A DNA stretch of 64,000 nucleotides from Pocillopora verrucosa (Eukaryota > Cnidaria > Anthozoa > Scleractinia > Pocilloporidae): assembly GCF_036669915.1 (NCBI RefSeq), contig NC_089316.1:8031972-8095971 (forward strand). The letters run 5' to 3'. The notes below the pieces were generated by a model, which worked only from the letters and a program-made list of their open reading frames with translations, had not been told where the DNA came from and ran no database searches. Position numbers and translations under genes: made by a program. Below, one piece after another: positions 1-57,230 of the stretch; position 1 is the first letter of the stretch; every line of letters begins with the position of its first letter.

Positions 1-405
1 TAAGCAGAGAGTTATTACACTCTCCTAGAAAATAATTGGGTACTAGCAAATACTTCTGGGCTGGCATCGTTGTGTGGGAGCTGAGGATCAAAACTGAGGA
101 TGAAAAATGTCTTAAACGCATTTGGCAGCATCCAGTTGAGGTACAAACAACTCGGGCTTTGATGGACGATTAAAGCAAAAGGAAACGTAATTCCTTATGA
201 TGCTATCATTTCATTTTAGTTCCTTTGTGCATCATCATTGGCTAACCCAAATTCTTCTAACCCGAATTCTTCAAAACCTGAGTGACGCTAAGAGAAAGAG
301 CAGTTAAGCTACACTAAAATTTGGTCCATCGTTTTGTGGCAACTTACTCCCCGCGGAATTTTTTTTTTGAGAGGGGGGGGGGGGGGGTATCAGGAACAAG
401 CCAGT
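1..405 (+). pseudogene. Intron with two decayed D8C exon relics
   Basis: Two eroded pieces of D8C coding sequence precede the intact exon. At about 35-160 the bases still read like the GWYRFVGA core (ctgggctggcatcgttgtgt) but with indels and stops. At about 258-405 the stretch corresponding to NLSDAKRKSSY is followed by a broken core interrupted by a T-run and a run of about 16 G (370-387). Matching relics occur at 20650-20790 and 18545-18690, and inverted at 49553-49691 and 49960-50095. They were therefore present before the cluster duplicated. Confidence 0.5.
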
Positions 406-482
406 TGTTTCAGATCCTTCTGGTTTAGAAGGTTATCTTTGTTACTACAACCTTTTTTTGTAATGTTTATTTCATTTACTAG

Positions 483-853
483 CCGACCCATGTTATTATC
501 ATCAAAACCTGAATGATGCCAGTAGAAAGAGCAGTTACTTAACACCCCAGTACCAAGAGGTGTGTGACGACCACCTTGTTGAGGGATGGTATCGTTTTGT
601 GGGAGCTGCAGGAACAAAAATGCCAACAACGCGTGTGCCAGCATACAGATGTGGTACACAGTGGTCTGGCTGGTTGGATGCTGCTCATCCTACAGTGGAA
701 GAAGGTGAAGTTCGAAGGACGGTCTGCTTTAGTGATCGCACTACTGGTTGCAAATACGCAACATATATTTTTGTAAAAAACTGTGGATCCAACTTCATCT
801 ACAAACTTAAAAGCCCACCTGGTTGTCCCTCACGCTACTGTAGTACAGACTGA
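483..853 (+). CDS. D8C terminal exon of a PAN-EGF-D8C paralogue (gene E, 5' part off the left edge)
   Basis: This is an intact last exon. An acceptor (TTTACTAG) precedes it, the frame continues a phase-1 codon (xCC GAC CCA TGT), and it runs without interruption to TGA at 851-853. The product is about 123 residues of a uromodulin/GP2-type D8C domain: DPCYY near the start, then CDDHL, the hallmark GWYRFVGAAGTKMPTTRVP, RCGT, HPTVEEGEV, and C-terminal FVKNCG and SRYC. D8C domains are cysteine-rich extracellular modules found in uromodulin-like secreted or GPI-linked proteins. It matches the last exon of gene C (21032-21405) in length, phase and most residues, and the DNA before it (1-480) matches the intron that precedes gene C's last exon. 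The remaining exons therefore probably lie left of position 1. Whether that gene is complete cannot be seen. Confidence 0.75.
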
Positions 854-3135
854 ATGTGAAGCAAATATGCTTCGTGTAGTAAGAGGACTAATAAATCGCT
901 CCGTAGGTACATGTGTACAAGGTTTTTACATGCGACGTATTCAACTTTTCTTCTCTATCGTCAACATTATCAGTAGATTTTACCTTTGGCGGCAAACAAG
1001 TATTTATTTCATTAGAATGATAATTCTCATCGGATAGCCTTTGTCATTGAAGAGAGAATTGCCCAAAGGATCTTTAAAGTAATCTTCAAGTAAAATCTGC
1101 AAGACACAAACTCTCAAGCTTATGGTTTTTTAGCCTTTTATGTTTTTGTTCTTTTTCGTTTTTTTCATCCTTCAATTGCTGTAATTATAAATCATGATTA
1201 TTTTAGCGTAGGTCAGTGGAATACAAACAGGTGCTATCTTTCGTTATAGGCGTAGAAAAAAAAGTGATGATTCTCAAAATCCGATGTCCTTTGAAATTAC
1301 AAAAAGTTAACGTAATAATAGTGACTCAGTATTTTGAAACGTTGAACCAATTTCCAGACACACAGTCAGCAAATTCAATGGTTTAGCCTGCGTAACTGTG
1401 TGTTAAATGTGTCGGAATCGACCAGAATTCATTTGAAATTAATGGATCGCTTACATCTCACGCTTATTTTGAATCCAAGTTAAAGATCTTTACGCAATGG
1501 CTTCAAAGTGTCCCTATGCAGCTTATTTAACTAAGCGCACGGGCGCTTCATTCATTCCTGACGAAATTTGTTAAAATAATTTTATACAGGTAATCACGCG
1601 TTTCCAGTGTAATTGGGGATAAAACAGAACGAGAAAATTTTCAACGACTGACCAAACTGTATGAACCCGTAGGGCGAGTGCAACTTGCATGTGTAATATT
1701 AAGTTTAAAAGCTGCATGTAGCTTTTAAAAGTTGACCTGTTTTTACTATGGTTAATGTTTGCCTACAACATAAACACGCTAAAAGTAAGGTATTCAGAAC
1801 TGCAATGTGATAAAAAAAAAGTATTTAGAGTAGCTTAGGTAAACACAAGTTGTAAACAACTTTTTACACCGTTTAAGTACATCACCAAAAATATTTTACA
1901 GGAATGTTAGATTTGAAATCAAAATCACAGTTTCTCTCGGCGAAGTTTTCCTTTTATATAATGCAAACATATTCAAAGAATCCTATGAAAAATAGTAAGC
2001 GCAGAAAAGAAACCCACTCTTACCGTAACCCCCAAAGGCTACTGCCTGATATTTCAATATTCTAACTAAGACTAGTCTTCCAATCATTTGATGTTCATTT
2101 GTCTCTCATTTACAATAAGAGACCTGAACACAAAGCAAATGAGGCAAAGCAAGGCGAGTTTCTTGACAACGTATCAAAATATAGAAAAATCGTCGGTAGA
2201 CTCTTCAAAGCAAAGTGATATGAGCTGGGTCAATTGTGGCTCAGCTTCTTGAGTGGTGTAAATAAATTATCTCATTATTTAACAAAAACTGTGTATCTCT
2301 TTGTAAATAAATTTAACTTACACGGACTAGTTTCATAACACGAACACGAGTAAGCGTTAAGGGCAGTGTAGTCCATGGGTCGGAGTAGGTTCTCGATACC
2401 ACTCATCTGATAGCGATCGCGAAAGAGTAGCTTTCACCGTTCTTTACTGAAGTTAATGTCAATAACCAGGTAAAAATAACAACAAAAACAAGGAAATGTT
2501 ACAGTGAAGTAAAAACAGAGCCATAAATAAAAACTGGGTTTAACTTTACATCGCAACGATTCAGTAACAAATGGAGAAAGTTATTGAAAAATATTTTAAC
2601 GTAAGGAACAGAAAAAGGAAAATAAGGTAATTTTTAACTTAATATTGAACATTTTTCTTGATTAATTGCAAGTAGTTTTCACAAGTAATGTTTGAATTAT
2701 GAAGTTAATAGTAATAAAAAAAAAAATTGCAAAAAGGCATCTCTTGTAGTTCATGCCTTTGTTAGTGCTAAGTGGATGTACATAAATTTGATACCCGTAT
2801 GGGAAAAGGGACAAAAGGGAGGGGGAAGGTTCTTTATAAAAGAACAATAGGAGAAATCATTGTTACCCTTAAGACCTGATAGTAATAATGGATACCTTTT
2901 GCATTGATGTAAAAAAAATTGCTCTGAAAAAATTCATATTCACATTCCGCTGGTAAATGAAGTTATCGATAAAATGTGTAAACGCACTGGGCGGTTAACT
3001 TCGCTCGGTTAATATATTTTTTCCATAAATGAATCAGTCGGAACTGTTGCGGAATAAAGTCTGGTAATAAAACCAGGTGCTGTAGTATTGCCCATTGTCT
3101 CCCGTTGCCGGATCCCATCATTTATCCTGTCGATG
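854..3135. other. Duplicated 3' flank between D8C exon and carrier pseudogene tail
   Basis: No gene is seen here. The sequence is closely similar to 21406-23514, the convergent intergenic stretch between gene C and SLC25A32, and more distantly to 9170-11260. It is also similar in reverse orientation to about 46400-48430. It presumably holds the 3' UTR and polyadenylation region of the D8C gene. Confidence 0.6.
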
Positions 3136-5111
3136 TCATCTGTCCGGCAGAAGGAAGTGAATAACGTTTTCGTACACCTCAAATGTAAGTGCACATGCTG
3201 GCGTTACTCTAAAAAGAAACAACAATCAACAACAATCAAACGCACAATACACAGTAAAATCGACAATGAACGTTTTACATATATTACAGTTTCAGAGTTT
3301 CTTCTAAAGCGCTCCTTTGCTGGATTTTCAAAAACAAAAAAAAACCGCTAAAACTTACACTAACATATCAGGTGGGGCACAAACATTTGTGACAACGATA
3401 AGTATCTTAATAATTTCACAGTATTCGAACATGTAACTGACGAAAACAATGACATGACACCTACTCCAAATTTTATAGCCTCTTAATGTATCTATCGCCT
3501 GTCTCTTCTTCCCAGTTTCTCACAGATAGAGGGTGCAAATAAGTTCAAACACCTTATGGGGGTACCCCATCTCTTAAGACCCTTTCCTTTACAAAGCGCC
3601 ACCTAAAATTAAAGATGAGAGCCCACTAAGCCCTCTTGGCCAATTCTAGATTATACATTGCGGTTTAACACATAAAACTAACAAGCAAATCTACTTGTAT
3701 CATCAAATTTATTTTTAACATTTAGCCTTACCTGAGGACACTGGGAGTTAATCCTTTATAAAATCCTGTTACTCCTTCGTGCCTAAGATTTTGAAAAGAA
3801 CCTGTCGTGAGTAGAGGCCAGAAAAAGAAGAATACCTTCTTTCATAAAAATGTGGACTTTACCACTAAGCCGTAAGTCAATCCGAAATTGGATCCAGTTC
3901 TCAAACGAGCTGGTTTCAGTTCTCCGCCAATTTTGGTCCAGTTCTTTGTCAAATTGTTTCAAACGGGCAAAACATGTACCTCTCTTTAATGTAGAGGGTT
4001 TGAAACTAGAGATGGAAAGCTAGTCTATAACGTATCGAAAACTTTAAGTCTTCATGTCAAGTTCCAACTTACCTGAAAGTCTTACTAATCACATCCAACG
4101 CGCCTTTGTATTCCACCATCGTGTACTGATTCTTTAGAAAAGTAAAATCCATGAACAATAAATGACAGCAGGAAAGAGTAAATACTGAACGATTTAACAA
4201 ATCAGACTTGCTTAGAGACAGCTCCAGATATATTTAATTGGTTTTCGCTAATTTTATGGGCACAGGATCAAAACTTTCGCGCCGTGCGTTCTCATAACCA
4301 TCTTGGATCCGTGTTTCTTAAGAGGAATAGAGAGAGTGAAAGAGGGTGAAAGCTATTCTCCCTCGTGAGATTTGGTATTTATCCTCATTTTAGGGTTTCC
4401 CTGGCCTTTTGTTGGTGCCCATTTGAACCACTGGGAAGGGGGATGTGTGGGGCTAACGAATCTTTTCCCAAGGAACCGACACAATGATCTAGCTGAGGCT
4501 CGAGGCCCGAGCACAGGCCACATCAAACTGGAGTCCAGTAAACCAACCGATGAGATCACCGGCCTGAAAACTAAAAACAGCCTTAAACTACAAGTTTATT
4601 TCAAGGTAATAGCATACAACAGTAAAACGAAATCTAAATCTATGTCAAAAGGTTAATAATTTGCTAATGAATCTCCCATTCTAACCTGAAGTCTTGCTCT
4701 AACCACTTGATAAGGATATGTCGCTGTTGCGGCGAAAATTTTCGACAATGAAGCCATTACAAGGTACTCAGTTGAACTCTATGAAGAAAATGAAAGTTAG
4801 CAAAACATAAATTAGAGAGCAAAACACTTTATATAAAAAAAAGAAGTACTATATTTTCAGCACTTCAGAGTGATTCCCACGATAACCCACGATTACATAA
4901 TAATAAACGTCATCCTATTAGTACCTTCCTACCAGCCACATGTACAACAAAGGTAATAGAGGTTGTCTTTTGGACGTCAGTTGTAGCTTCAAAGTGCTGA
5001 AGCTCGTCATGGAGGACTACTACTCAAGATGAGAAGCCAAAAACTTCCCCCACCCTTCCCTCTCTCGCGTTCTCCCTTTACGTTCGCCACTGGCCACCAC
5101 ATGTGTTCGTG

Positions 5112-5327
5112 TTGACCCTTTACACCCTAACATCAATATTCATATTCTCCATACTGTTCTCTGTACATTTCCAAAGATACTAACAGGGAGAATTTCTTAA
5201 ACAGTCAATAACTTTTTCGGTGGCTGAATATTTCCTCTATTCTCGTGACCTCCATGTGTGATTCAGAGGTGATATTGTAAGGAGAAGTTAGATGTCGGTC
5301 ATTCTTGGGGGGGGGACAAAGGGTTGA
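5112..5327. repeat. TTAACCCTTTA-type short interspersed element, copy 1
   Basis: The segment begins TTGACCCTTTACACCCTAAC and ends with ACAAAGGGTTGA, so its ends are near-inverted copies of each other. The interior (ATATTCTCCATACTG, CTCTATTCTCGTGACC, GATATTGTAAGGAGAAG) recurs at 25495-25711, 38755-38966 (opposite orientation), 27390-27583 and 57999-58209. This suggests a small non-autonomous DNA transposon family. It was carried along in the segmental duplication. Confidence 0.55.
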
Positions 5328-6206
5328 TTCTTATCAATCCTTCTGGGTGGAGAGGGGAGTTGAGAGTAAAGTTTCGTTCCAGTAAATGACAACAATTCAA
5401 TCATCCACCCTTAGCTATGAACATGATCAGAGTAAAAACACTTCACATGTTCTGTTAGTCAAGGTTTAAGACCAAGAGTTTCTTGTTTGCTGACTCTGTT
5501 GAATTTGTGAGCTTTAACACGTATACAATCAACTATACAAACACATGCAGACAGTATTCACCAGCTTCTTGTTGATTGGTGTTCCAAAATATTGACTGTA
5601 GCCTTTCTTCAGCTCTCATAGGCCATGAATTGCAGTGCTCCGTGCGATACGCCAAAAACACCTGGAACGTAACCCTGGTCAAGTAAAATAAAATGATATG
5701 AGCAAACTTCATGTTCCATTCAAACACATAAACTCAGGTTAATCACTCACAATACCATTATCTAAGCTAGGTGAAGATAGCGGGGTCTTAAAAAAGGCTG
5801 AAATAGCTTTGTATGGTTCCTGACTCTGAGACTGATGTTTATGCTTCTCTTTTGTTTTTGCGCTTACCTTCCCTTTTTCTCTTTTTGATTGTTTCCCTCC
5901 TTTCTTAAAGGAGGTTTGAAAACCACTGTTGGCTTAGTGCATATGCAGCATCCAAAACATACTAACTACAATATCAAAATGTTCTACATTAAGTCTCAAA
6001 AGAGAATATCAAAGACATAATTGTGATTGCATCATGCAGACCTACATCTGTAAGATATCTAAAGTTCTCTGCAATCAGAGTACCAAACAATGAGTCACTT
6101 AAAAAAATAGGCCCGATGCATTGGTATAAAGTTTTCAAATTGTGCTCTATAAGAGTACGTTTACACTTCCACTATTGAATCTCCCATGTACATTTAGGAA
6201 CTAAAG

Positions 6207-6208
<2 letters not shown>

Positions 6209-6243
<35 letters not shown>
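6209..6243. repeat. (TA)n microsatellite, left of hairpin element
   Basis: An uninterrupted TA tract directly abuts the left arm of the hairpin at 6242-6408. A second (TA)n tract lies at about 6469-6511 beyond the right arm. Confidence 0.85.
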
Positions 6244-6252
<9 letters not shown>

Positions 6253-6408: not shown

Positions 6409-6465
6409 TCTGCTCTGCTTCAACGTATTGAGCACTGTTCCACGCGAAAATCGACTTACAGACTT

Positions 6466-6513
<48 letters not shown>

Positions 6514-7262: not shown

Positions 7263-8787
7263 CCTGGCACAAACCACCAAAAAGTTAATTCATCATTCTA
7301 ATTAGCAAATATATGGACCTTAATCGTTGGAAAGTAAGTCAACGTAATATAACTTAAAACTTTTCCTAAAATGATCTCAATAATAACGCAACACAATCGG
7401 TTACTCGGCAAACATACAATTATCTATTTGTTCAAAATTGATCAGCGCACTTGAATGAATGTGTAAAGAGCATCGCATGAATTAATGTCTGATAACATCT
7501 CGAACCGTGAACACGACCCTGAGAGTGACGCTAAATGAGCACGCTTCAAACTTCAAGTCTCTCAACGGAGACAAACAGATGCTTTTTTCGAAACATATTC
7601 ACAATTCTTTCATTAAATTTTTTTCGAATATCTGTAGTTCTTAACAGTAGAAACAAAACAAGATTATAAAGACTGCCTCGATAAGCTCGTCCGTGGAAAA
7701 GCGCCAGAGTTTGCCCGAGAGGTTTCAGAATTCAGACCACCTGTACATGCTCTAAATTTAAATTCAAATAAAAGATTATTTGGGACTAGTAGTTATTAGG
7801 ATCGCACAAGTTATTAGTAAACTTACACAGCCACAGAATTTATAAAAGGAACCAAAACTGCATAGTTTCTTTGAGATCAGCTTAGATTTATAAGGCCTAT
7901 TTGGTGCACCGTTTTATTTTGTCCCTTGTTAGAAGTACTGTTTCACAGTAATTTTTTTTTGTTTGTTTTCAGTCATTTGCGGCGGTGAAATATCGCTTTC
8001 AAAAATCTCACACTTTCAAAATATGGCCAACATTTATCAAATAGAACATAAAAAACCACGATATTTCCATAGGGACATTTTTTAATACACTAGCTTTCCT
8101 TCGACGGCTTTGAGGTTTTGCGGTGCCTTGAAGGAGATCAAATGAAAAAGAGCACAAAAAAATTAGCCAAATCTCGTGCAGCAATTTCTTTATTCTCCAT
8201 GTGTAGAGGGCTGGATTAGTCTTTAAGACGAATATCAACATTTAGACAAAGTAATTGATAGCATGAATCATGAGGTTCATTTTGGATAAATGATTCTAAA
8301 CAACTTTTCTCTCAAATATTGATAACTGAGTTCAGTCAAAAAATATTTTTTGGGAATAAATATTAAGAGAATATAGTTCAAATTGCTTGACCGATCGTAC
8401 TTCTTTTCTGCTTTGAAAAGTGGAATATTCAGGACTTAATTGTCTTCAAGCGGCACCGGTCCGGCGGTTGTAATTTACGTCCACGGGGGCGTCTTTCCTA
8501 CAGTAGAAACCTATACCTAAAAATAAATGTCCTTAATGCATCAATTTTTGGTCACGGAAACATAGTTAAAACAATTTTTAAGGACTTAACTCGGACTCAA
8601 GTTTCAATGCACAAAGGTTGTGCATTAAGAAACGAAACTACTTGGCGACGATTTGACGCGAAATCTCTGGAGGGCTTTTCTTAAGTCAACACATAATTCT
8701 GAAATATTTGAGAGCACTCACATAGATATCTTTTAGGCTTGATTTTAATAATATCAGTCCTTTTGCAATTCTCATTTCACTTTGCAG
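7263..8787. other. Non-coding spacer unit, copy 1
   Basis: No gene is seen. Landmarks recur elsewhere: ATCTATTTGTTCAAAATTGATCAGCGCA and GATAACATCT...GACCCTGAGAG (also about 11650-11780, inverted about 45720-45830), and TCAATGCACAAAGGTTGTGCATT...GGAGGGCTTTTCTTAAGT (8600-8685; also 13805-13900). It is part of the duplicated cassette that precedes a D8C exon. Confidence 0.6.
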
Positions 8788-9169
8788 CTGATCCTTGCTA
8801 TCATTATGAAAACCTGAGTGAAGCCAATAGAAAGATAGATTACCTTACACCTCCCGGTTCAGAATTGTGTGACTACAAACTCCCTGAGGGGATGGTATCG
8901 TTTTGTGGGAGCTGCGGGAACAAAAATGCCAACAACACGTGTGCCAGCATACAGATGTGGTACAGACTGGTCAGGCTGGTTGGATGGTGCTCATCCTACA
9001 GTGCAAGATGGTGAAGTTCAAATGAAGGTCTGCTTTAGTAATCGTCTATCTGAGCTCCCAGTTTGCAAATACTCAACAACGATTTTTGTGAAAAAACTGT
9101 GGATCCTACTTCATCTACAAACTTCACCACCCACCTGGTTGTGATTCACGCTACTGTGGTACAGACTGA
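8788..9169 (+). pseudogene. D8C exon with two +1 frameshifts
   Basis: The acceptor TTTGCAG precedes xCT GAT CCT TGC, giving DPCYHYENLSEANRKIDYL and CDYKLPEG in one frame. An extra G in GAGGGGATGG (near 8889; other copies have GAGGGATGG) shifts the rest, GWYRFVGAAGTKMPTTRVP through FVK, to the next frame. One extra A in the A-run at about 9091-9096 shifts the tail NCGSYFIYKLHHPPGC and SRYCGTD again, to TGA at 9167-9169. No upstream PAN or EGF exons are visible between 854 and 8787. This is an isolated, dead D8C exon duplicate. Confidence 0.85.
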
Positions 9170-15954: not shown

Positions 15955-16748
15955 ACAAGCTGAGTAGTAGGTGATTGATTTTTTTTCTGGAATTTTGTAA
16001 GTTTGTTTGTATTTCTGGCTAAGTAAATTTGGCCAAATTTACTTGGCCTGATCCTGAACTTCTATTCGAATTATAGCTCTCTGCACTCAAGTATATATCT
16101 CTGCACTCGAGTTTTTATGTCGTTCTCAAATAATGGAATCTTATTTACTCCTGTCAAGCTGCTATGGAGTGTTCTCGCAAGATTTCGGGAGGGCCATTAA
16201 TCAGTCCATGACATGTATTATGATTTTTATTATTATTCGCCTGGTAGATAGATAGTTTTCAAAGTAAGCTGTAACTGGGCGGGAATTCAACATTTACCTG
16301 TGGCGTCTTATCCTAAATATTCTCAGATTAAGCACAAGGAAAGAAGTATGTACAAGCTGAGTAGTAGGTGATTGATTTTTTTTCTGGAATTTTGTAAGTT
16401 TGTTTGTATTTCTGGCTAAGTAAATTTGGCCAAATTTACTTGGCCTGATCCTGAACTTCTATTCGAATTATAGCTCTCTGCACTCAAGTATATATCTCTG
16501 CACTCGAGTTTTTATGTCGTTCTCAAATAATGGAATCTTATTTACTCCTGTCAAGCTGCTATGGAGTGTTCTCGCAAGATTTCGGGAGGGCCATTAATCA
16601 GTCCATGACATGTATTATGATTTTTATTATTATTCGCCTGGTAGATAGATAGTTTTCAAAGTAAGCTGTAACTGGGCGGGAATTCAACATTTACCTGTGG
16701 CGTCTTATCCTAAATATTCTCAGATTAAGCACAAGGAAAGAAGTATGT
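15955..16748. repeat. 397-bp direct tandem duplication spanning the gene C start codon
   Basis: Two head-to-tail copies, 15955-16351 and 16352-16748, look identical when read side by side (from ACAAGCTGAGTAGTAGG to AAAGAAGTATGT). The second copy runs into the first codon of gene C at 16745. The first copy also carries the ATG (16348), but there it opens into a very short frame. High identity implies a recent event, or a collapsed/expanded assembly artefact. Confidence 0.9.
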
Positions 16749-19700
16749 GGTGGCTGTTCCGCCATTTAAGATTCGTCCTTTTCACATTTACCATGGAGTT
16801 TGTCACAGCTAATGATCAATGTAGGACCGAAGTAAATGTACAAGGAATGGCTCTCAAGCGTTCTGTTTTCAAAAGATGGTCAGTGGCGGCTCCTCATCTT
16901 TGCGATGTCAAATGTGGACAGGAGATTACATGCCAAAGCTATAACTACAATAGAAATTACCAGATATGTGAACTAAATAACCGCACCAAGGAGGCGAGAC
17001 CAGAGAATTTCCTTTCAGCACCCGCATGGTTTTACATCCGGCGATTGAACGGCAGAGGTGAGAAATCAAAGGTATTTCCATCTATGTGATTTCTATTTCT
17101 CAAAATCTTCTCTGTCCTAGAAGAACTAAGAATTGGTGGTTAACGTAAAACTTGTCTTTGCTGCAGCTCCCTTAGGCTCTATCCCCGAATTACCGGCGTT
17201 GTCTTGTCACGAAATAAAGGCAAGTGAAGGTAAACACATCATAAGCGGCAAGTATTGGCTGAATCCAACTTGTAAAGGAAAGGCAAAACTGATTTACTGT
17301 GATATGGTTCACGAAGGTAGGTCTTATAAGTTTGCATGAGTTACTTTATTTTGTTACGAGTTATCAGTAACATGAGATTATTATAAAATTATACTATTAT
17401 TGATACCATTATCCTAATATTTGGTTTGGATCAGTTCTAGCGAGGATGCCTTTCTCAAGTTGCTCTAACTTAGTTACTGCTTCTCTATCCACATTCTAGA
17501 TATGGATGAATGTAAATATAACATCAGTAACTGCGATGTGAATGCAAACTGTACTAACACGTATGGTTCTTACAAATGCACATGTAAAGTGGGATACACC
17601 GGCGATGGACACTCATGCTCAGGTAATTTTGATGATGACCTTATCAATATTTCCCAATAAAACCCATTTTTGTAAATATTCTCACGATTTTAAGCAGCGT
17701 TACCCATGCATGTTTAGGCACAGAGTAACCATGGTTTACACCTGGCTTGTTTCAGAGCAGTCAGGTTGATAAATTAAACTATTTGAGCTGAAATATAATT
17801 TCGCAATATCTAATTTATGTAGCCCTAAAAGAGAAACATTTGTTTTAAAATTTATGATGATCAAAGGAATTGAACGACTATAAGTTACAAAAAACGATAA
17901 GGTGCAAAAATGTATCGATTGTTTTTCAGATATTGACGAGTGTAAAGGAAATCACTCTTGTCACGTGAATGCTATCTGCATGAACACCAAAGGATTGTAC
18001 GTTTGTACTTGTCACCCCGGATATACTGGAAATGGACGCAACTGCACAGGTATTTGATGCGTTTCTTTTGTAACCATTTCCATCAGAAAGAAAAGCACCA
18101 TTATCGTTGTAAGACTTGTTTTCGCCATTTTACCTTGTATTAAGAAGAGATGAATGTAGGCCCGAAGACAATATTGATGATGACACAATTGTTTTAAATA
18201 AACATTCAGGGGGAAAAATCTCAACTGGCAAAGGGAGACTTGATGAATGGGCTTACAGGACTGAACAATAGATTTAAACTTGCGGGAAACTAAGCACTAT
18301 CATCGTTGCAAGACTTGTTTTACCAGCATACCTTGTATAAAAAAAGAGATGAGTGTACTGAGGCCTGAAGACAATGTTGATAATGACACACTTGTATTAA
18401 ATAAACATTCAGTGGTAAAAAAATCTCAACTGGCAAAGGGAGACTTGATGAATGGGCTTACAGGACAGAACAATAGATTTGAACTCGCGGGGAACTAAGA
18501 AAAAATCTAGTAAGCGTTAAAGACTAAAGACACGGTCTTACCTGCTATAATTATCAAAACCTGGGTGATGCCAATATTAAGAGTAGTTACGCTACACCGA
18601 AATTTGGTCCAGTGTTTTGTGACGACCTATCCCCCAAGGGATGGTACGTTTTGTGGGAGCAGCAGGAACAAGCCAGTTGTTTCAGAGCCGATAGCTTGAT
18701 AAACTGAAATACTCGTGATAAAATATACGTTTCAAATATCTAATTCGTGGAACACAAAAAGAGAAAAATTTTTTTTAATTATGTTTGATTATCAAAGTAA
18801 TCACTCGACTGAGAGTCCGCTCATTTTTAAAGTGACAAACATGATGAGGTGCAAATATTTATGTGGTTTCCTCAGATATTGACGAATGTAAAGGAAATCA
18901 CTCTTGTCACGTGAATGCTATCTGCACGAACACCAACGGATCCTATCGTTGTGAATGCCACCCTGGATTTAATGGAAATGGTCAAAGCTGCACAGGTGAA
19001 TTTAATCTCTTTGCTATAATATTTAGAATATTCCTGCTCGAATATAACCTGAAGCTGCTGAGGTGGTTATATTATTAGTTTCTTATATGTAAACGATACC
19101 GGTTGTGCCCTAAGTCTGCCTACAGCTGTCCTTTAATGCATTGTCTGAAAGAGAAGGAGCTCAAATTCGGATCCTGATGAGTTTATCTAGATTTCCAATA
19201 TCACTGTTTTAGTCTCAAAGCCTTAAAGTAGTTTAAGACATGCGAGTTACAATGTTCAATTCTTTTTCGCCTAAAAACACTGTAGGTACATTTAAGCAAT
19301 TGCTATCTACAATCGAGTGAGTGAATAACAGACCAATAATAACTTGCATGCTATATCTGTGGATCCATAGCACTAAATAAAGCAATTTTAGCAGGAACTA
19401 TTGTCCTACCAGTACTAAACACGATCGTTAGCAAGCGATCTAAGATTTTAGGGCTTAGTTACCTTTTGTAATTGAGCGTGGCTTTAAGCAACGTTAGGGC
19501 TTTTCTTTGATACATTTCATAAACCATATATGAAAACTCTAAGAACGGGTGCTGTTAATTTTATCGTGAATTAATTCATCAATAAATTAAACTTGCTTCA
19601 TGTTGAAGTTTATCAAAATGAAACAAAAACGAAGGTTACCTGCTATATTATTCAGTGTTATTTGTTGTCATTGTCGTTTTAACCGTGATTAAAAATTGTT

Positions 19701-40160: not shown

Positions 40161-42024
40161 CTATTCCGTACTACAGTAACGGGTATTACATGTTGGTACT
40201 CCAGAGAAGTAATATACGTAATAAGAGCCACAGTTTCTTACTTGGATGTAGGTGGACCATCTACAACAGTTTGAAAACCAGTGAAAGCAGACCTGCCTGG
40301 TAACTTGACCCTCAGCCACTGTGGGATGAACTCCATTTAACCAGCTTGAGATATCAGCTGTACACCTATGAGTTGGTGGACAAGTGGTTGGCATTTTTGT
40401 TCCTGCAGCTCCTTGGAAACGATACCAGCCATGGGGGAGTGAGTTATCGCACAAAGCAGACCCGGCTTTGGGGATTGTGGATTTACGGTCGGCACTGGTC
40501 AGACTTGAGTAACTTTGGCACTCCTCGACTGAAGCAAACATTACTTCGTTGGATTAATCAGTAAGGAGTTCACGCGTATGAAAAGTCAATGAAAGTTCAA
40601 ATCAAATTAATTACAAATTATTCAATTGGGAAAATTCTTTTGATTATTTTGTATCATTTGTTGGATGCCCAAGCTACTATTTCATACCTTGGCATGATTT
40701 ACCATCGCCAATGTATCCTTCGTTACAGGTGCAGTTGTGAGAACCTTCAGTGTTGGTACAATTCGCATTTACGTCACACACAGTATTGCTGTCTTTGCAT
40801 TCATCTATATCTGATTGGAAAGTAATCAAAAGAAGTCAATGCTAGCAAAGATTCCTTGAATGATTTACGCATGAGAATCGAATTAACAAATAGATTCCAA
40901 GTTGCCGTCCGTCTGTTCAGTAATAGATCACAGAGGACGTCAAAATGTGATGACGTCATCTATACGTCTGTCCTCCAATAGATCATAAGTGACAACCAAT
41001 CAGAATGCGTGCATAACTGAGCTTATTATATAATATTGTACCATAGCGTCACGATAATTTTCTACCTGAGCATGAGTGTCCATCCCCAGTAAATCCTTCT
41101 TTACAGGTGCAATTATAAAACCCAACAGTATTGGAGCAGTTTGCATTCTTGTCACAGACATCGTTGCTGCTTTTACATTCATCGATATCTAATTGGAAAT
41201 TGATCGAAAGAAAACATTAAGACAAGGTCCAAACACTGTGTAAAGTAATTCTGTTCTTGGTATACTGACTTACCTCCCAAGTTCATGTCGCAATAAACCA
41301 ACTTTGAACTCCCGACATAAGTTGGATCCAACCAGTACTTTTTACTGATGCTGCTTTTTCCTTCACTTAGTTTTATCTCTTGGCACGATAACGCTGGTAA
41401 TTCAGGAATAGATCCTAAGGGGGCTACGATATAGACATGACTTCATTAATGGTTTGAGGGTAATAGAAGTTGCAATACAGATTAGAGATGAATATATATT
41501 TGTCTGGGCGAGATAAACATGGAATGATAATAATTAAGAGCTGTGAAGTTTAGCTGCTATTAATATAGAATGGAGGGTGAATTTTGCTTTAAGACAGTGC
41601 CCCTATTTAATAACAAAGCAATCAGACACTTGCTCTCGGAAAGTGATGGGTTTTTACTAAGAACTCACTGAAAAAGATTTGTATGTAAAATAAACTAGAC
41701 CGGATACGTACCTCTACCACTGAGGCGTCCCATGTAAAAGCGTAAACCATCTGGCTGGAAATTCTCGGGCCTTGCTTCCTTAGTTCGGATGTTCAATTCA
41801 CAGGACTTTTCCCCAATTACATAATTGTAGCTTTGACATATCGTTTCTCTCTCGCAGGTGATATCGCACACATGAGGAGCTGTTACTGGGACCTTTTTAA
41901 AGACGAATCCTTTGAGAGCCATACCAGGTACGTTAACTTCTGTCTTGCATGTATTTTTAGCAGTAGAGAAGTTCATGAGATACAAAGAGGCTAGGAAGAT
42001 TAAGAAGCTTGAATTCCTCGCCAT
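40161..42024 (-). CDS. Secreted PAN/apple - YCDM segment - EGF x2 - D8C protein (gene A)
   Basis: Five exons, all joined in phase 1: 41712-42024, 41274-41423, 41066-41188, 40688-40810 and 40161-40528. The total is 1077 nt, giving 358 aa. Exon 1 encodes a signal peptide (MARNSSFLIFLASLYLMNF) and a PAN/apple domain (GMALKGFVFKKVPVTAPHVC, CELNIRTKEARPENF). Exon 2 has SIPELPALSC, KYWLDP and YCDM. Exons 3 and 4 are calcium-binding-type EGF modules (DIDECKSSNDVC and DIDECKDSNTVC). Exon 5 is a complete D8C (GWYRFQGAAGTKMPTT, NCCRW, VRNCGSYYVY, TRYCSTE). Unlike the other copies, its D8C keeps the CC pair and the TCPPTHRC cysteine, so it may be closer to the ancestral form. An in-frame ATG upstream (42138) would add a second hydrophobic stretch; I prefer 42024. 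Intact and compact, so probably functional. Confidence 0.9.
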
Positions 42025-48436: not shown

Positions 48437-51400
48437 TCAGTCTGTACCACAGTAGCGATAGTTACAATAACTTGGCTGTTGAAGTTTGTAGATGAAGTAG
48501 GATCCACAGTTTTTCACAGAAGTAGTCTTCGTGGCTTTACAACCAGACTAACGATCGGTAAAGCAGACCTTCCTGAAAACTTCACCATCTTCCACTGCAG
48601 GATGAGCACCATCCAACCAGCCTGGCCATTGTGTTCCACATCTGTTTGTTGGCACACGTGTTGTTGGCATTTTGGTTCCTGCAGCTCCCACAAAACGATA
48701 CCATCCCTCAGGGAGTTGGTTGTCGCACAATTCTGAACCGTGACTTGTTAAGTAACTTATCTTTCTATTGGCATCACTCAGGTCTTTATAATCATAGCAA
48801 GGATCGGCTACAAAGTAAAATGAAAATGCAGAAGGACTTCGGGTATTAAAATCAATGGTTCAAGATTTTTTCTAATGTCTTATAATTCTGGCAGCTTGCC
48901 AATCAGAGGTGAAACTTGTATTTAACAAGAAAAATGACTATGCATTAATTAAGGGGTCAAGTAGTACATGGGATCATGTGTAGGATATCATCACTCGAAG
49001 AGGCTCAGTGATATTAAAAATCCAAATGAATTCAGCAGGATCCGAATCTGAGCTCCTTCTTTCTCAGACAGCGCCTTAAAAGACAGCTCTTGGTAGACTT
49101 AAGGTGCAACCAGTACCGTTTACATATGAAAAAATAATAATATGGCCGACAGTGGCCACCTCAGCAGCTTGAGGTTAGATTCGAGCAGGAATATTCTAAA
49201 TATTATAGCAAATAGATTAAATTCACCTTTGCAGTTTTGACCATTTCCATTAAATTCAGGCTGGCATTCACAAACAAAGGATCCTTTGGTGTTCGTGTAG
49301 ATAGCATTCACGTGACAAGAGTGAATTCCTTTACATTCGTCAATATCTGAGAAACCATATAAATATTTGCACTTTATCATTTCTGTCACTTTAAAAATAG
49401 GTGGACTCTCAGTCATGTCAGTATTACTTTGATAATTATAAATAAAAAAAAAAAATTTTCCTCTTTTTTGTGTTTCACAAATTAAATGTTTGAAACGTAT
49501 ATTTCACCACAAATTTTTGAATTTATCAAGCTATCGGCTCTGAAACAACTGGCTTGTTCGTGCAGCTCCCACAAAACGATATCATCCCTCGGGGGGTAAG
49601 TCGTCACAAAACACTGTTCCAGATGGCGGTATAGCGTAACTGCTCTTTCTATTGGCATCACTCAGGTTTTGATAATTACAACATGGGTCGGCTACTAAAT
49701 TAAATAACATTGAGAAAAGATTGTAGTATCAAAGATAAAATGTTTTTGTTGACATTTTAAAATCAGTGACTTGTGTTTTACAAGAACAACTATGCATTAA
49801 AAAAATTTTTTAAGAAGAATTTGTGTCGGACAATGATGATGCTCATAGGAACTAAAATCAAATGATAGCATTATAAAGAGTTATGTTTCCCCTTGCTATA
49901 ATCGCCCATCAACTAAAGCCTGAGTTGTTTGTATGTATCTCAACTCAGTGGATGCTACCAAATGCGTTTAGGACATTTTTGGTCCTCAGCTCCTACACAA
50001 TGAAACCAGTCCAAAGGTATTCGGTAGTAACACAATTATTTCCCAGGACTGCGTAATAACTGCGTAATAACGTAATAAATATTAGCATCATCCAATTATT
50101 TATAATCATGAAGCAAATTGCCTTGCATAAGTCAAATAAGTTTGAATGACCATAGCTGTTATTGTGATAAGGTAATTCTCGAAGGTTAGAGAATCTTAAA
50201 GGATTTTTACGGTTCCACGAAAAGGGTCAGATAAGGTCAGAGAAAAATGTGCAATCCCTTCAGAACTCAGCCTAACCATTTCTTTTTAGATCTTTTTGTT
50301 TTTGTTTTTGCTTTTTTTGTTATCATTTTCGCATTCGTCATGAATCTGGTTAGTGAGATAATTTGGTTTTATTAACTGAGTTGATAATGTAAATTGGCCA
50401 CTATAAAGAGTTATGAAGCTGACGTTTCGAGCGTAAGCTTTAAAACTCTATACGATGGCCAATTTACGTCATCAACTAGGTTAATAATACTTAGATACCC
50501 TGTTATACTATCCCACCGATGCAGCATCACAGTTTCTTTAGAACCTTACCCCCTTCGTCATCGCTCTTTCTATCAGTTCACTAGGGAGGTAGATCACGCG
50601 GCATGTTGTAAGAACAACAGAAAAGTTTGTACTTCCGAGCTGGAGGTGATTGATTTACTTTTTTTTCGAATGGTTTTCCAACATCTGGAGACGTTTACTA
50701 CGCTGGTAAACCGTTAGAAAATGCAGTCTGTTACTTTAATAAAAGCCCTGGGTATTAGCGCAAGATCCATTCGGATGACATTCGTTCATTTTAATGAAGT
50801 AAATCAAGGCATGAGCCTGGCTGCATTCGTCAACAACATAAACTTCAATTTTCCATAGGTTTACCGGTGCAAGCAACGATATTTTTTTGACCAATCAGAG
50901 CGCTCGAAGTATCTTGATAATTTTATAAGCAGTTTTCAACTTCTTACGCGTAAACGAAAACGGAACGCCTTGGAAAAGCACTTATATATCCAACCTGTAG
51001 ACAGGGTTCAGAGCCAAACGAGCGATATTATTTTCATACTTTTGTCGACCACTTTTACAGGATCTATTTAAAAGCAGAATAACAATGCATCAGTCACCAA
51101 AATTGTTCATTCAAAAGTCAGGAACGTTACCTAAGAGGTCCTTAACACGAGAAACGGCTACTTGAATTAAAACGAGTTATGAGTGAATGGTACTGCTGTA
51201 GTCGAACGTGTCTAAATGTTGAAGCGAATAGATTAAACTCACCTGTGCAGTTTTGCCCATTTCCAGTATATCCAGCGAGACATTCACATACATGTGATCC
51301 GAGGGTGTTTTTGCATTTAGCATTCTTGTAACAGGAGTGATTTCCTCTACACTCGTCAATATCTGAGAAACCGTAGATTTGCATTTTATCATTTTTGTTA

Positions 51401-52837
51401 ACTAACAATTTGTAATAACTTTAATCGTTTTAAATAATGAGAAACAAATTTCTTTCTTCTGTCTTTCACGAACTAGATTTTTGAAAAGTACATTTCACCA
51501 CCAATTGTATTCTCTTGTCACAAAGAATGTTTTTTTCTTTTTATCTCCTAACATGATGACTCTCGAACAAACCGGTTGTAGATCATGGCAACTCTGTGCA
51601 TAAACATGTATGGGTAATGCTGCTTAAAAAGCAAAACTTAACACTGATAGGACAACAGTTCCTTCTAAAATTGCTTTGTTTAATGCTAGGGCTTCACTGA
51701 TATATATAGCATGCAAGCTATTATTGGTCTATTATTCACTCACTCGACTGTAGATAGCTCAAATGTACCTCCAGTGTTTTTAGGCGAAAAAATATTAAAT
51801 ATTGTAACTCGGCATGTCTGTAACTATTTTACCTGAGCACGAGTGTCCATCCCCAGTAAATCCTTCTTTGCAAGTGCAATTATAGAATCCAACAGTATTG
51901 GAGCAGTTTGCATTTTTGTCACAAATGTTATTGATGCCTTTGCAATCATCGATGTCTGATTGAAAATTAATCGAAAGAAAAAATTGAGACAAGGTGAAAA
52001 AATTCTACAAAAGGGAAGTGTAAAGGTAGACCAACCACTGTGTAAAGTAATCCTGTTCTTGATATGCTGACTTACCTCCCAAGTTCATGTCGCAATAAAC
52101 CAACTTTGAACTCCCGGCATTAGCTGGATCCAACCAATACTTTTTACTGATGCTGTCTTCACCTTCACTTAATTTTATCTCTTGGCACGATGACGCTGGT
52201 AATTCAGGAATAGATCCTAAGGGGGCTACGATATAGACATGACTTCATTAATGGTTTGAGGGTAATAGAAGTTGCAATACAGATTAGAGATGAATATATA
52301 TTTGTCCGGGCAAGCCTTGTTTATGATAAACATGGAATAATAATGATTAAGAGCTGTGAAGTTTGGCTGATATTAATGTAGTATGAAGGGCGAATTTTGC
52401 TTTAAGACAGTGGCCCTATTTAATAACAAAGCAATCAGACACTTGCTTTCGGAAAGTGACAGGTTTTTACTAAGAACTCACGGAGAAAGATTTGTATTTA
52501 AAATAAACGAGACCGAATGCGTACTTCTACCGCCAACGCGTCCCATGTAAAAGCGTAAATCATCTGGCTGGAAATTATCGGGCCTTGCTTCCTTAGTTCG
52601 GGTGTTCAATTCACAGGACTTTTCCCCAATTATGTAATGGTAGCTTTGACATATCGTATCCTTCTCGCAAGTGATATCGCACATATGAGGAGCTGTTACT
52701 GGGACCTTTTTAAAGACGAATCCTTTGAGAGCCATACCAGGTACGCTTACTTCTGTCTTGCATGGAGTTTTAGCAGTAGAGAAGTCCATGAGATACAGAG
52801 AGACCAGGAGGATTAAGAAGCTTGAATTCCACGCCAT
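48437..52837 (-). CDS. PAN/apple - YCDM segment - EGF x3 - D8C protein with in-frame stop (gene B, probably damaged)
   Basis: Six exons keep the phase and sizes of gene C: 52525-52837, 52076-52225, 51833-51955, 51243-51362, 49227-49346 and 48437-48807. Exon 1: signal peptide (MAWNSSFLILLVSLYLMDF) and PAN domain (CELNTRTKEARPDNF). Exon 2: KYWLDP and YCDM. Then three EGF modules and D8C. Damage: a TAG at 48548-48550, right after VCFTDR, cuts the protein to 361 of 398 residues, removing the D8C tail NCGSYFIYKL...RYCGTD although that tail stays open. EGF3 has lost a cysteine (NAIYTNT where copies have NAICTNT) and a conserved Gly (QPEFNGNG). The last base of exon 1 is A rather than G, weakening that donor. 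It could be a young pseudogene, a truncated protein, or an allele or assembly error. Confidence 0.72.
49553..49691 (-). pseudogene. Partial D8C exon relic in gene B intron 5
   Basis: It keeps an acceptor (TTTAGTAG) and reads DPCCNYQNLSDANRKSSYA and CDDLPPEG. TGA then replaces the core Trp (GGA TGA TAT CGT), and the sequence breaks off after VGAA at the same AACAAGCCAGTTGTTTCAG junction as the relics at about 405 and 18690. It lies between the transcript positions of EGF2 and EGF3, as at 18545-18690 in gene C; strictly this is intron 4 of the six-exon model. Confidence 0.72.
49960..50095 (-). pseudogene. Further decayed D8C relic in gene B intron 4
   Basis: In reverse orientation it resembles 20650-20790 and 35-160 (CTGGTTTCATTGTGTAGGAGCTGAGGACCAAAAATG). 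Heavily mutated; recognised only through its relatives. Confidence 0.4.
50345..50490. repeat. Inverted repeat containing GAAGCTGACGTTTCGAGCG
   Basis: AGTTGATAATGTAAATTGGCCACTATAAAGAGTT and AACTCTATACGATGGCCAATTTACGTCATCAACT are near reverse complements, flanking a motif GCTGACGTTTCGAGCGTAAG. This looks like the end of a dispersed repeat family, possibly retroelement-derived. No coding sequence is attached. Confidence 0.5.
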
Positions 52838-53252
52838 TCCCGCTGATGCTGAAATTGGAAAGTGTAGATTACTTAGCCAAACCAGCAGACAAAAAGTTAT
52901 GACAACAGATAGACAGACAGACAAACAAACATGAAGCAACGTAGGAATCAATTCTGAATCGACTGCATGTTAGCAATAAGAAAAGTACATAGTTCCTCAT
53001 GGGAACTCTGAATTTTTCTTTGTCCCACACTCGTGACAAGACGAAAAACATCTTTCTTTATTAGATTTAATTAAAATAATTGAGGGCATCTTTTAATATT
53101 CTCTCCGCCCAATTGTTTCCTTGGCAAGAGTCCACTTTTTAATAATGCAACTTGTTATTTCGCCATTCTAACTAGAAAAGCAAATCAAGTCGATACAATT
53201 GCAAAGGCCATAGGTTTTAAACAAGCTCATCTCCACGCTTTACACGTATTAA

Positions 53253-53872
53253 GAGAGGATGTCAGTATCAATCGAACAAATTTAAAATATTTTGGCGAGT
53301 CGCCCAAAATTCGATTTAACTCCTACTTTCATATTTTGTAGCCCAGTATGTCCTAATAATTGTGGTGTAGTTTTTTTGTGAAAATATATTTTAGTTTTCG
53401 AGAAATAATTTTTTTCGTTCGATCGCTCAAGTATGCAAATTTTCACCGTTGATATTACCCAAGTTGTGGGACCTCATGTAACGAATGTACTTGACCTCTG
53501 GTATTTCTGTCAACATAATCCTTTGTTTTATCACCTAAACTTAATCTCCTGTCATTATTGAAGCTGGAAAAGTAATACTTATTTTTTGGCTAACATTTTT
53601 GTCCGACATACTTTTCCTATGTTGAAAAGTAACATCGAAACAAAGACAGTTTTAACAATGACCGATATGACAGAATCTGCTGAGCTTCAAGTTTTTAAGA
53701 GACAAAAGGATGGTTAAAAAGTTACTGTAAAAGTTTCCTTGTGTATTTGTGTTGTTCTATCTTGAGACGAACTCAAAGTCCGGCAAAATTTACTTGTTAG
53801 CGACTATGAAATATACATGGTGTGCCTGATACGACTTGCCGCTGTTAGTCCCATTCATGCTGACATAAGCTC
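53253..53872. mobile_element. 620-bp TTAA-flanked non-autonomous element (piggyBac-like MITE)
   Basis: Flanked by TTAA at 53249-53252 and 53873-53876. The ends are imperfect inverted repeats: the left reads GAGAGGATGTCAGTATCAAT and the right, on the reverse strand, reads GAGCTTATGTCAGCATGAAT. The paralogous position upstream of gene A has a single TTAA (42370-42373) in otherwise matching sequence, which is an empty site. No transposase frame, so it is non-autonomous. The TTAA duplication is the known signature of piggyBac transposition. Confidence 0.8.
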
Positions 53873-54150
53873 TTAAAGCAAATCCCCGCACAATTGGCAC
53901 AATTTTTTGATCATTTGATTGGCTTCATAGCACAAAAAGACTTCAAAATCTTGGAGATATAAAAAGAGTTTTATAAACTCAACTATCATTATCCTTAAAC
54001 TAAATACACACACCTTCTATGGATGACGATCTATGGTGATGTTTTGGAATCATCTGTGTACATACGGTATATAAAATGGAATCATCGAGGTTTTTTATAA
54101 TATGATATTTTTAGTGAAAGACACGGGTATACCCGAAGAAAAAGAACTCA

Positions 54151-54216
54151 GAGTGCTCGCAATAGGAGTCGAACCTACGGCCTTCTGATTAGTACTTCGG
54201 ATGTTCTATCAACTCG
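54151..54216 (-). mobile_element. tRNA-like SINE relic in gene B upstream region
   Basis: The reverse strand has a canonical B box GGTTCGACTCC and an upstream GAGTTGATAGAACATCCG that could be an eroded A box, spaced as in a tRNA. Paralogous to 42661-42726. Confidence 0.5.
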
Positions 54217-55952
54217 TGGCAGGCTAGGCCTGATGACAAACTTCGTGCACACTGCTAGGATATGAATGTCGGATGGGAAGCTTAATAATAAACCTAAATT
54301 AAAAACTGACACATTGAAGAATTTTTTCTTGCCTAACATTAAAGAAACAAAGTGTTCAGAAACCTTGCGTCACACAAGACTGAGCCCCAAAAAGTTGTAG
54401 AAAGTCGATAAAAAGAAAGAGTCTTTCAACGTCTCTTATTCCCTGCCCAAGTTTCGACATTTAAAGGTTTCCCGTTTCGAGCAGCAAGACCCGACTTACG
54501 TCTTCCACGCTGCATTGCACCTTAAAATTGGAGATTTGATAAGGACAGTTTTCATCGTTAATTAACATATTAAAGTCACGCACGGCTTTGCACATCATGA
54601 AAACTTTGGAAAACTTTGATTTTAAAAGTGATCATGGTTTTGATAAAATGGCAAAACTACTGTAACTTCATTCATTTCCTTTTCTCCTTCCTTTTTACAG
54701 AAGCTATAATCCGTCACGGCTGCATGCGTCAATAGAAGTTGCATTCTAAAGTGTTTGCAGGTGTTAGCGATATTTCACTTTCAAATATGGAAAGACAACT
54801 TCTCATTCCTGAGTAATTCTCGAGATTAATGCTACTCTCTCTCTTATCTTGGAAGCTTTGAATAAATTTTTGAATGTCATAAATAGAAAGACGCTTCAGT
54901 TTAACCTTGGTTTTATAAGCCGCAATAACTTTCAAAAAGGGAAAAGAAAAACTTCTTTTCATATATTATTGATAGCAGCTAAGTACAGCTGTGTACTTAG
55001 ATGCCAAGCCTTTGATTTGGAGTGAGGCTGAAGGTGACCTAGTTGTCATAGAGACCAGAATCAAGTTAGTATGATAACAAAGTAATTTGTATTTGAAAAG
55101 CAGCAAGGTTTGTATCGTGACAAGGTCAACATTACCCTCACTCCTGTTCAAAGGCTTGGCAACCAAGCACACAACTGTACAATGGACTATTCTGGCAAGG
55201 AACAATCCAACAGAGAAAATGCAAATATTTCCCATAACCCCCGCACTTAGCAACTTCACGAAAAATTGGTTATCATCTAAAACATGTCGAATCTTTGTTA
55301 AAAACAGGTGCTCTCAAACAGCAGAGCATGATTTGCTAGAGATAAGAACTACACCTTGCGTCAAATACCATAAACAACTCGCCATGATTTAGTGCGATCC
55401 AGTACTTCGCAGCCTCTTTACAAAATGAAAAGGCTAAGACCTACGCTATTGGTTGGAATATGGTGACGGGAAAACAAGAATAAATAAGTGGAATGAAAAG
55501 CGCTTGTTGATCGATACCATGGGGATTAAGAGTGCCAATTTGAAAGATAAGTTTTTGTTCTCGAGTTTTGGAAAGGAAAAGGCCGCAAATAAGCATATGC
55601 TGCTTAGAATAATCAGGGAGATTTGTAGTATACATCTATACACCCTTTCCTATAAAACTTTAGCCATTGACATTTTGCTCCGCCAAACTCGAGGCAACTG
55701 GTCCTTGCTGCAATAACGCAAATTGCATGCCAGTGCACCAGAGAAGTATTATCTTTAATGGCCATTTGAAAAACAATACGTTTGTTTGCCCTCGACACTC
55801 TTAAAAGTAGTAACCTCTATTGGTTAATGTAGTAACCTCTATTTTGATAGCTTTTCACCTGCCGTTGCTTTAAACAAACATGTATGGCTCAATCACGACT
55901 AACACTCATTGCATGCATAATTCCTTAAATTGCTATGAGGAAAATTATTTAC

Positions 55953-57230
55953 CTTTTACAACTACCTCGTTTCTAGCCTCGATAGTAGAGAAAAGCAAGT
56001 TTGCTTCACAAATGAACACTCCATAATCAGCCTCTTTGAGTTTAGATATCTTCTTAACTCGTCTTGTCGAATCTCGCCATACTCGCATCTCTGGCACCTT
56101 TAAATCTCCTCCAAGAAATACTTGAGGGTGGAGAGCAATCTAAGAGCCATGTCATCCCAAAGACTTTTGGAAAATTTTGCGGTAACCTTGCTTTAAATGT
56201 TGGTACAAACCAGACAAACAGCGAGTCAACGGTTAATGCTCCCCTAATGAATTCTTGGCGTGGCAGACGTACAGTCCAGTGTCTTGTTTTTGGGCGGCTC
56301 CCACAGTCAAAAGTGCCTTCAACCTGAGAAGTCCGGTCTTTCGACAGATAAACTGGTAGCTTACGCCGAGAGATAACTGGTACTGGAAAACCCGTTACGT
56401 GGCACTTTGGCAGCGCAGCGTTTTCACCTACTTTTGTTTGGGTCGGACTTCAAGCTAGTTGAACCCGAGGAGGTGCTACGAGGAGAAGAGTTATACATAA
56501 TTTTCAAAGTTCACCCATGGATAAACAACTTTAAAAAACTTTTAACGATGGCGGTAATAAAAACTATCATGATAATAGTGGTACTGCTAGCATTTAGATC
56601 TGGGGTAGATGAAATCGTGTTCCGAATTAATTCGGCCCTCGAGTCCAATTTTATCTTGTTCATAGGAAGTGCTTACCTTCAATAATCAGTCGGGCTGTAT
56701 GGTTTGCGGTGCTTGATAAGTTTCTTCTCGTGCAGGTGTATTTACCCGCGTCGTCAAGAGTCACGTGACGCACTTGTCATCTCCCACCTTGACCAAAATG
56801 AGAACGACTACTTAGGAGGATTTTTTTTTACCTCTAACCACGTAGTGTCGGTGTAGGATTACCACTCACAGAACATTGGAACACTACACTTTAATTTTTC
56901 TCTGACCGTTTGGGGTCTATCTTAGCACCAGGTGACCCTCTTGTACCCGGAACTGCTTTGATTCTCGGTTCCCTAATCGGGTCTCGTGGTCCAGCATTGC
57001 CCTGTTTTCCACACGGCCCCGGATCTACTCCGACAAAACGTGATCTTTTCTTTCCCACGTCTGCTCGCGTTCCTCTTCTCCCATGGGATACTTTGGGATT
57101 CTTGCATTCCCAGCAGTCCTTGCATACATATTAGTTCTTTTGTTGAACAGAATGATAGTGGGGACAGCTAGTTTAAAGTCTTGTTTATCTCGCTTCTGAT
57201 TGTCACCATGGGAATTTGATTGGGTTTGGA
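55953..57230 (-). pseudogene. Decayed copy of the collagen-Ig gene (gene D relic)
   Basis: Two exons of gene D can be recognised. About 55953-56470 matches gene D exon 3: it still has the donor (GTAAAAG|GTAAAT), KLKEADYGVFICEAN and STIEARNEVVVKG for the last Ig, and KQDTGLYVCHAKNSLGE for the one before, but these are in different frames with stops between. About 56677-57230 matches exon 2: the Ig end with its CACGTGACGC strand, then a collagen part so eroded that Gly-X-Y is lost, and the block after the acceptor (reverse of TTCTTTTGTTGAACAGAATGAT) corresponding to SFCSPKE. No membrane-anchor exon or glycine-rich exon was found. It is dead. Confidence 0.8.

Follow-up and report, generated by a model that had tools for sequence, protein, structure and literature searches.

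Human uromodulin (UMOD) uses a D8C-type domain to trap bacteria, and this vertebrate decoy module is known for urinary and gut defence. In GP2, the ten cysteines of this module (D10C) form the disulfides C1-C8, C2-C9, C3-C6, C4-C10 and C5-C7 (PMC8930769). A UMOD/GP2-like family of teleosts, the omcins, has expanded in tandem with a variable number of domains; in zebrafish, omcin5 and 14 paralogues lie within about 400 kb, and omcin5, for which a mutant phenotype is described, contains five D10C domains, EGF IV and a ZP module (PMC11415648). As for corals, many tandemly duplicated genes, checked with long reads, were found in a Pocillopora assembly other than the one used here, EGF_CA orthogroups being commoner in Pocillopora cf. 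effusa than in Porites lobata, and the accessible main text of that paper mentions no uromodulin, apple or PAN domain and draws no head/tail contrast (PMC10236652). Here we describe a 64,000-nucleotide stretch of the Pocillopora verrucosa genome (C5:8031972-8095971, contig NC_089316.1; hereafter the window), which holds a few members of a very large tandem family of modular proteins predicted to be secreted. The predicted order in these proteins is a signal peptide, a PAN/apple domain, a stub resembling a collagen propeptide, a variable number of EGF domains and a terminal D8C/D10C domain.

The coral family resembles the omcins in its tandem expansion and variable domain number, and undergoes birth and death like other coral tandem duplicates. 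Differently from the omcins, it has PAN heads, no ZP module and far more copies, and is known from sequence alone. Compared with human UMOD and GP2, no ZP module was found and the head consists of PAN plus the collagen-like stub; moreover, the tails of the type found in gene A (see below) lack the C3-C6 disulfide, and the decoy domain stands last in the protein, the D8C exon carrying the stop codon in the splice models. Unlike the PAN/apple proteins plasminogen (PAp) and HGF (N domain), genes A and C encode neither kringle nor protease, their PAN domain being fused to EGF and D8C.

The scale of the family became apparent from a genome search with the D8C domain of gene A as query, in which the best 150 of 437 candidates were scored, so that the counts are lower bounds. 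At least 150 D8C matches were obtained, 135 of them on C5; 131 are full length (124 stop-free, seven with a stop), and 17 of the 150 contain a stop overall. The block at C5:7.03-8.83 Mb holds 61 matches, of which those left of 8.06 Mb lie on the plus strand in 45 cases and on the minus strand in two, and all 14 to the right lie on the minus strand; the window spans this switch. Other C5 blocks with four or more matches are found at 10.2-10.4, 12.2-12.7, 13.9, 15.0-16.1, 16.6-16.9 and 17.8-18.3 Mb. The other fetched D8C copies (90 fetched, gene A included) match that of gene A at 57 to 77%. A 2733-residue open frame at the D8C match at C5:7327721 was rejected as an artefact of a run of N.

Within the window, the following features define three genes and two further D8C copies (splice models unless other evidence is given):
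16745..17057, plus strand: first exon of gene A, encoding a signal peptide (judged by eye from its hydrophobic start) and a PAN/apple domain, whose fold was obtained for the close relative P0007
17167..17316, plus strand: gene A exon 2, 50-residue stub resembling a fibrillar-collagen C-propeptide
17500..17622, plus strand: gene A EGF1 (also PF12947/PF07645)
17930..18049, plus strand: gene A EGF2
18876..18995, plus strand: gene A EGF3
21032..21405, plus strand: gene A terminal D8C exon, 8-Cys form
41712..42024, minus strand: gene C exon 1, signal peptide and PAN
41274..41423, minus strand: gene C exon 2, 150-nt stub
41066..41188, minus strand: gene C EGF1
40688..40810, minus strand: gene C EGF2
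40161..40528, minus strand: gene C terminal D10C exon, ten cysteines; GP2 match at E 3e-31
52525..52837, minus strand: gene B exon 1 (PAN), within the stretch 88% identical to gene C
52076..52225, minus strand: gene B exon 2, stub
51833..51955, minus strand: gene B EGF1; C-like homology stops 6 bp past it
51243..51362, minus strand: gene B EGF2, in the A-like part
49227..49346, minus strand: gene B EGF3, one cysteine lost
48437..48807, minus strand: gene B D8C exon with in-frame TAG, where the annotated protein P0068 ends
483..853, plus strand: D8C exon of a gene cut by the left edge (tblastn)
8787..9166, plus strand: frameshifted D8C copy (tblastn)

Genes A (313+150+123+120+120+374 nucleotides, 399 amino acids, three EGF exons) and C (313+150+123+123+368, 358 amino acids, two EGF exons) have open frames, and gene B (313+150+123+120+120+371, three EGF exons) is interrupted by one in-frame TAG in its D8C exon, and its third EGF has a cysteine replaced by tyrosine. 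All three begin with a 313-nt exon for signal peptide and PAN, followed by one of 150 nt, EGF exons of 123/120 nt and a terminal D8C exon, and every internal junction is GT-AG and in phase 1. The annotated P. verrucosa protein P0068 equals gene B letter for letter across the exons that it covers, beginning within the PAN exon, leaving out EGF2 and EGF3 and terminating at the TAG. The D8C exon of the edge gene is open, preceded by AG and ended by TGA, and beyond the left edge lie five upstream EGF exon matches with six cysteines each. When the D8C domain of gene A was compared with the window by tblastn, itself left out, the matches ranged from E 5e-39 (frameshifted copy) to 3e-64 (edge copy), against a best E of 0.17 in the reversed window over all seven tblastn queries. 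An earlier note on this stretch had described these two intact genes, the gene with a stop, the one cut by the window edge, the frameshifted exon and the shared exon sizes and phase, and had concluded that exons could be gained or lost within a birth-and-death cluster with the frame kept intact. All of this is borne out, and on a larger scale than first seen: tandem copies, their divergence and pseudogenes are found genome-wide, annotated Pocillopora proteins with a terminal D8C have anything from no EGF (P0043) to six (P0001), and heads and tails have been exchanged between copies.

The terminal domain has the fold of the uromodulin/GP2 decoy module, as computed for the D8C tail, and the PF23283 (D8C/D10C) profile matches gene A at 43 bits and gene C at 59.6 bits (curated cut-off 27). 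Gene C keeps all ten D10C cysteines, and the only two missing from gene A are C3 and C6, which are bonded to each other in GP2. In a set of 71 full-length domains (65 from the best 120 of 591 protein matches, four from the window and two human), both cysteines are present in 46, neither in 25 and one alone in none; in two of the 46, the likewise bonded C5 and C7 are both gone. The 25 domains without C3 are window copies, Pocillopora proteins or entries without a species name. The both-or-neither rule also holds for 90 of 92 P. verrucosa D8C copies (90 fetched loci plus genes B and C; six with a stop), the exceptions being L092, which has lost only C3, and L093, on inspection a one-residue alignment shift. 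Related copies inherit the same losses, and these counts thus do not represent independent events.

Concerning the head, the PAN fold was computed for P0007, the close relative of gene A, and the 150-nt stub has a collagen-propeptide fold; by sequence, the head has no convincing match among solved structures (best E 0.18). At least three kinds of PAN head precede D8C tails: A-like, C-like and a third kind upstream of loci L066 and L075. Head and tail change at different rates. By one counting method applied to nearest intact copies, the ratio of nonsynonymous to synonymous rates (dN/dS) is 0.16 for PAN (0.12-0.22; 7 of 10 pairs, from 28 stop-free of 30 loci), 0.22 for the stub (0.18-0.31; 9 pairs) and 0.23 for EGF1 (0.13-0.34; 8 pairs), as against 0.86 for D8C (0.72-1.07; 19 pairs from 71 distinct stop-free 8-Cys exons; Fisher P 6e-9 versus PAN). 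The D8C tail thus changes fast with its cysteines conserved, and the head is under strong constraint. The cysteines and much of the core are nearly invariant, change being concentrated in some segments: 108-117, which begins at the position of UMOD N275, has a value of 1.49 (1.09-2.25) and loop 19-27 of 1.48 (0.99-2.54), compared with 0.54 (1-18), 0.75 (28-59), 0.85 (60-81), 0.83 (82-91), 0.90 (92-107) and 0.30 (118-123), all of them descriptive, since the borders were drawn after the entropy profile had been viewed, and uncorrected for eight segments.

Several copies are mosaics. Genes B and C are 88% identical across 1163 bp of head, up to 6 bp past EGF1; the gene B intron is A-like (84%) from 51831 onward, and the gene B tail is 69% identical to the D8C of gene A versus 49% to that of gene C. 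The head of gene A is 96% identical to that of the P0007 gene (C5:7931579-7934870) over 1307 bp, to 30 bp past EGF1, and their D8C tails have a synonymous divergence (dS) of 0.33. The edge gene and a gene 21 kb upstream of it have a common tail (96.5%) that begins some 11 bp upstream of an EGF exon, and their nearest upstream PAN exons belong to different classes (83% and 52% identical to the PAN of gene A). The EGF exons are natural repeated joints, but copies differ in where they are joined. That the joint always follows EGF1 was rejected as a rule: EGF1 was located in 8 of the 10 nearest PAN pairs, and of these, three show homology of the head that breaks off or falls away no more than 150 bp beyond EGF1, two lose it before EGF1, and three carry it on or regain it at similar identity. 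Within the exon, a PHI-type (pairwise homoplasy index) permutation test, applied to the 71 distinct 8-Cys exons that are intact, gave no signal of recombination (1.559 observed against a permuted mean of 1.554; 1217 of 2000 permutations gave a value as low). The pair L012/L018, picked after the fact, looks mosaic (31/183 versus 1/186 differences in the exon halves, P 2e-9) and disagrees with this family-wide null. A segmental duplication is also present:
429..6057, plus strand: segmental duplicate of 20980-26422, with D8C exon and 5 kb downstream
20980..26422, plus strand: segmental duplicate of 429-6057
The D8C exons of the two segments are 85% identical (dN/dS 1.0), the downstream sequence mostly 95-99% and the upstream sequence 79% (at 5-258). 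That the exon evolves faster than its flanks was rejected, as the upstream sequence is divergent too, and conversion of the 3' part explains the pattern as well as selection.

The fold, exon phases, array, mosaic copies and constrained head beside a fast-changing tail were all computed here. Taken as a whole, we would give a shade better than an even chance to a tandem modular secreted family in which a constant head and stalk carry an exchangeable, variable D8C tail that binds microbial or symbiont surface molecules. New combinations of head, stalk and tail would arise when copies recombine unequally in the phase-1 introns flanking the repeated EGF exons; head and stalk would serve the same purpose throughout, to assemble or attach the protein in mucus or matrix; and the tail would offer a variable surface to changing partners. 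By analogy with UMOD, GP2 and the omcins, its likeliest role would be to bind microbial or symbiont surfaces in mucus, in a decoy- or opsonin-like manner without the mannose-FimH contact of uromodulin. The family may constitute an inherited repertoire of recognition proteins. More tentatively, and with some doubt, it could provide germline-encoded combinatorial recognition, in which at least 124 stop-free full-length D8C tails per genome would be combined, through EGF exons of phase 1, with PAN heads of three or more kinds; the tails would diversify around the face on which uromodulin presents its bacteria-binding glycan, and each copy would trap a different microbial or symbiont surface molecule.

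Several observations weigh against the favoured reading. An equivalent of the UMOD N275 sequon occurs in 0/92 copies and a GP2 N65-type sequon (C1+2) in 13/92, neither being seen by eye in genes A or C, and a Pfam search detected no ZP module in A or C at E <= 1. UMOD-like filaments are thus not expected, and with the N275 sequon absent as well, the family has the domain in common with UMOD and GP2, not their known binding chemistry; from its sequence, it is predicted not to be a FimH decoy. Note also that a different sequon, at C1+5, is found in 61/92 copies. Positive selection is not proven, as D8C dN/dS is not above 1 overall and the eight youngest D8C pairs, pooled, give 1.46 (0.98-2.05; one-sided P 0.08). 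Relaxed constraint on the tail would yield similar values, mosaic exons can distort such counts, and some heads are less constrained (PAN 0.55 for B/C and 0.45 for L103/L104).

The D8C rates speak for the strongest alternative, to which we assign a lesser but serious chance: that these are structural or wound-healing matrix proteins, in which PAN, stub and EGF act in the matrix, and a redundant tandem family has merely let the constraint on its D8C tails relax. The collagen-propeptide fold of the stub would suit such a role, as would the wound induction of a uromodulin-annotated gene in Nematostella (PMC4229989) and the higher level of uromodulin transcripts in branch bases than in tips of Acropora (PMC4320547). 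A cnidarian uromodulin-annotated gene has also been linked to symbiosis (PMC3141003), and the links to wounds, symbiosis and branch position do not decide between the readings of the role. However, 124 of the 131 scored full-length D8C exons are stop-free, the near invariance of cysteines and core beside segmental change is at odds with a merely relaxed tail, and the loss of C3 and C6 as a pair implies that the domain folds and is under selection.

Self/non-self and gamete recognition also yield fast-changing families, and tails acting between coral individuals rather than on microbes would account for a family that is large, fast-changing and secreted; the nearest fold relatives with a tested function nevertheless act against bacteria, and we consider this explanation unlikely. 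That the copy number is inflated by retained haplotypes or other assembly errors is highly improbable: the D8C exons of L058 (C5:8.378 Mb) and L059 (8.486 Mb), 108 kb apart, are identical and the neighbouring sequence (L103/L104) is duplicated at about 94%, but the other fetched copies diverge as given above, lie in distinct places, nearly all on one contig, and tandem duplicates were checked by long reads in the other Pocillopora assembly (PMC10236652).

The remaining remnants of the family in the window are:
272..385, plus strand: D8C relic, 5' part (E 8e-5)
18543..18670, plus strand: D8C relic, 5' part, in a gene A intron (E 1e-11)
49555..49692, minus strand: D8C relic, 5' part, inside gene B (E 1e-15)
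55701..55748, minus strand: weak D8C tail relic (E 0.004)
50739..50834, minus strand: degenerate EGF relic inside gene B (E 3e-4)
Of about five older D8C relics counted in the earlier note, three are thus firm (E 8e-5 to 1e-15) and one weak, and a further candidate at 50110-49970 (E 0.28) is no better than the reversed-window control. The same note had suggested that the family is lineage-specific; this fails for the D10C form, which also occurs in Acropora, Montipora, Porites, Oculina and Stylophora, and stands for the full-length 8-Cys form, found among the best 120 of 591 protein matches only in Pocillopora or species-unlabelled entries. An 8-Cys motif was seen by eye in two incomplete Stylophora domains (P0017, P0040).

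Upstream of gene A, a perfect 397-bp tandem duplication (15955-16351 / 16352-16748), the second copy of which ends four bases into the coding part of exon 1, is a very recent copy of the putative promoter region. An 89-bp inverted repeat (20240-20328 / 20545-20458, 98% identical), possibly a small transposon, lies in the last intron of gene A. P0001 and P0002, a P. meandrina and a P. verrucosa protein, have near-identical PAN, stub and first EGFs by eye. The EGF exons upstream of the edge gene correspond, again by eye, to P0002, but the D8C of that gene is unlike the one in P0001. This could reflect a tail replaced between the sister species, or an erroneous gene model.

Between genes A and C lies a collagen-Ig membrane gene (37401-32855, minus strand, 789 amino acids) with three junctions, all in phase 1, and exons encoding a transmembrane segment, collagen plus Ig, Ig-Ig and a terminal ALK/LTK-type glycine-rich region. 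Its Oculina relatives (P0189, P0190, P0201; head about 60% identical) terminate in D10C, and its glycine-rich tail is 77% identical to that of the Oculina PAN-EGF protein P0139; tails appear to have been exchanged between the PAN-EGF and collagen-Ig families. Best matches had hinted that gene C and the collagen-Ig gene swapped tails with each other. This was rejected on the basis of a tree, where the gene C tail groups with three D10C proteins of Oculina that are of PAN-EGF or EGF type (support 93), in a clade that also includes the Ig-D10C fragment P0184. A broken collagen-Ig relic (55954-57281, minus strand) adjoins gene B. Elsewhere in the window, an Asp/Glu-rich, very acidic open frame without Pfam match above cut-off runs to the right edge (63199-63999, plus strand), and Gly/Lys/Arg/Glu-rich open frames lie in several frames over a simple purine repeat (27576-28052). 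On C8 (18.55-18.80 Mb), another PAN gene family forms a tight array, all listed copies being on the same strand.

Earlier work already covers the domain itself, the PAN and EGF modules, tandem gene duplication in corals and the tandem expansion of UMOD-like genes in fish. No description of a large D8C/uromodulin-like array in a stony coral was found among the papers listed in a search of openly licensed literature, and the array size, the paired disulfide loss and the head/tail contrast were likewise not found in the literature searched. Even if the tails were merely relaxed, the locus would clearly exemplify how living paralogues shuffle phase-1 exons in nature, with several joints that can be located to within tens of bases. 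Should the tails bind microbes, the contrast between conserved head and variable tail would point to the surface concerned, and this reef coral would possess a very large inherited set of uromodulin-type traps, tying a vertebrate decoy module to cnidarian mucosal defence or symbiont choice in parallel with the teleost omcins.

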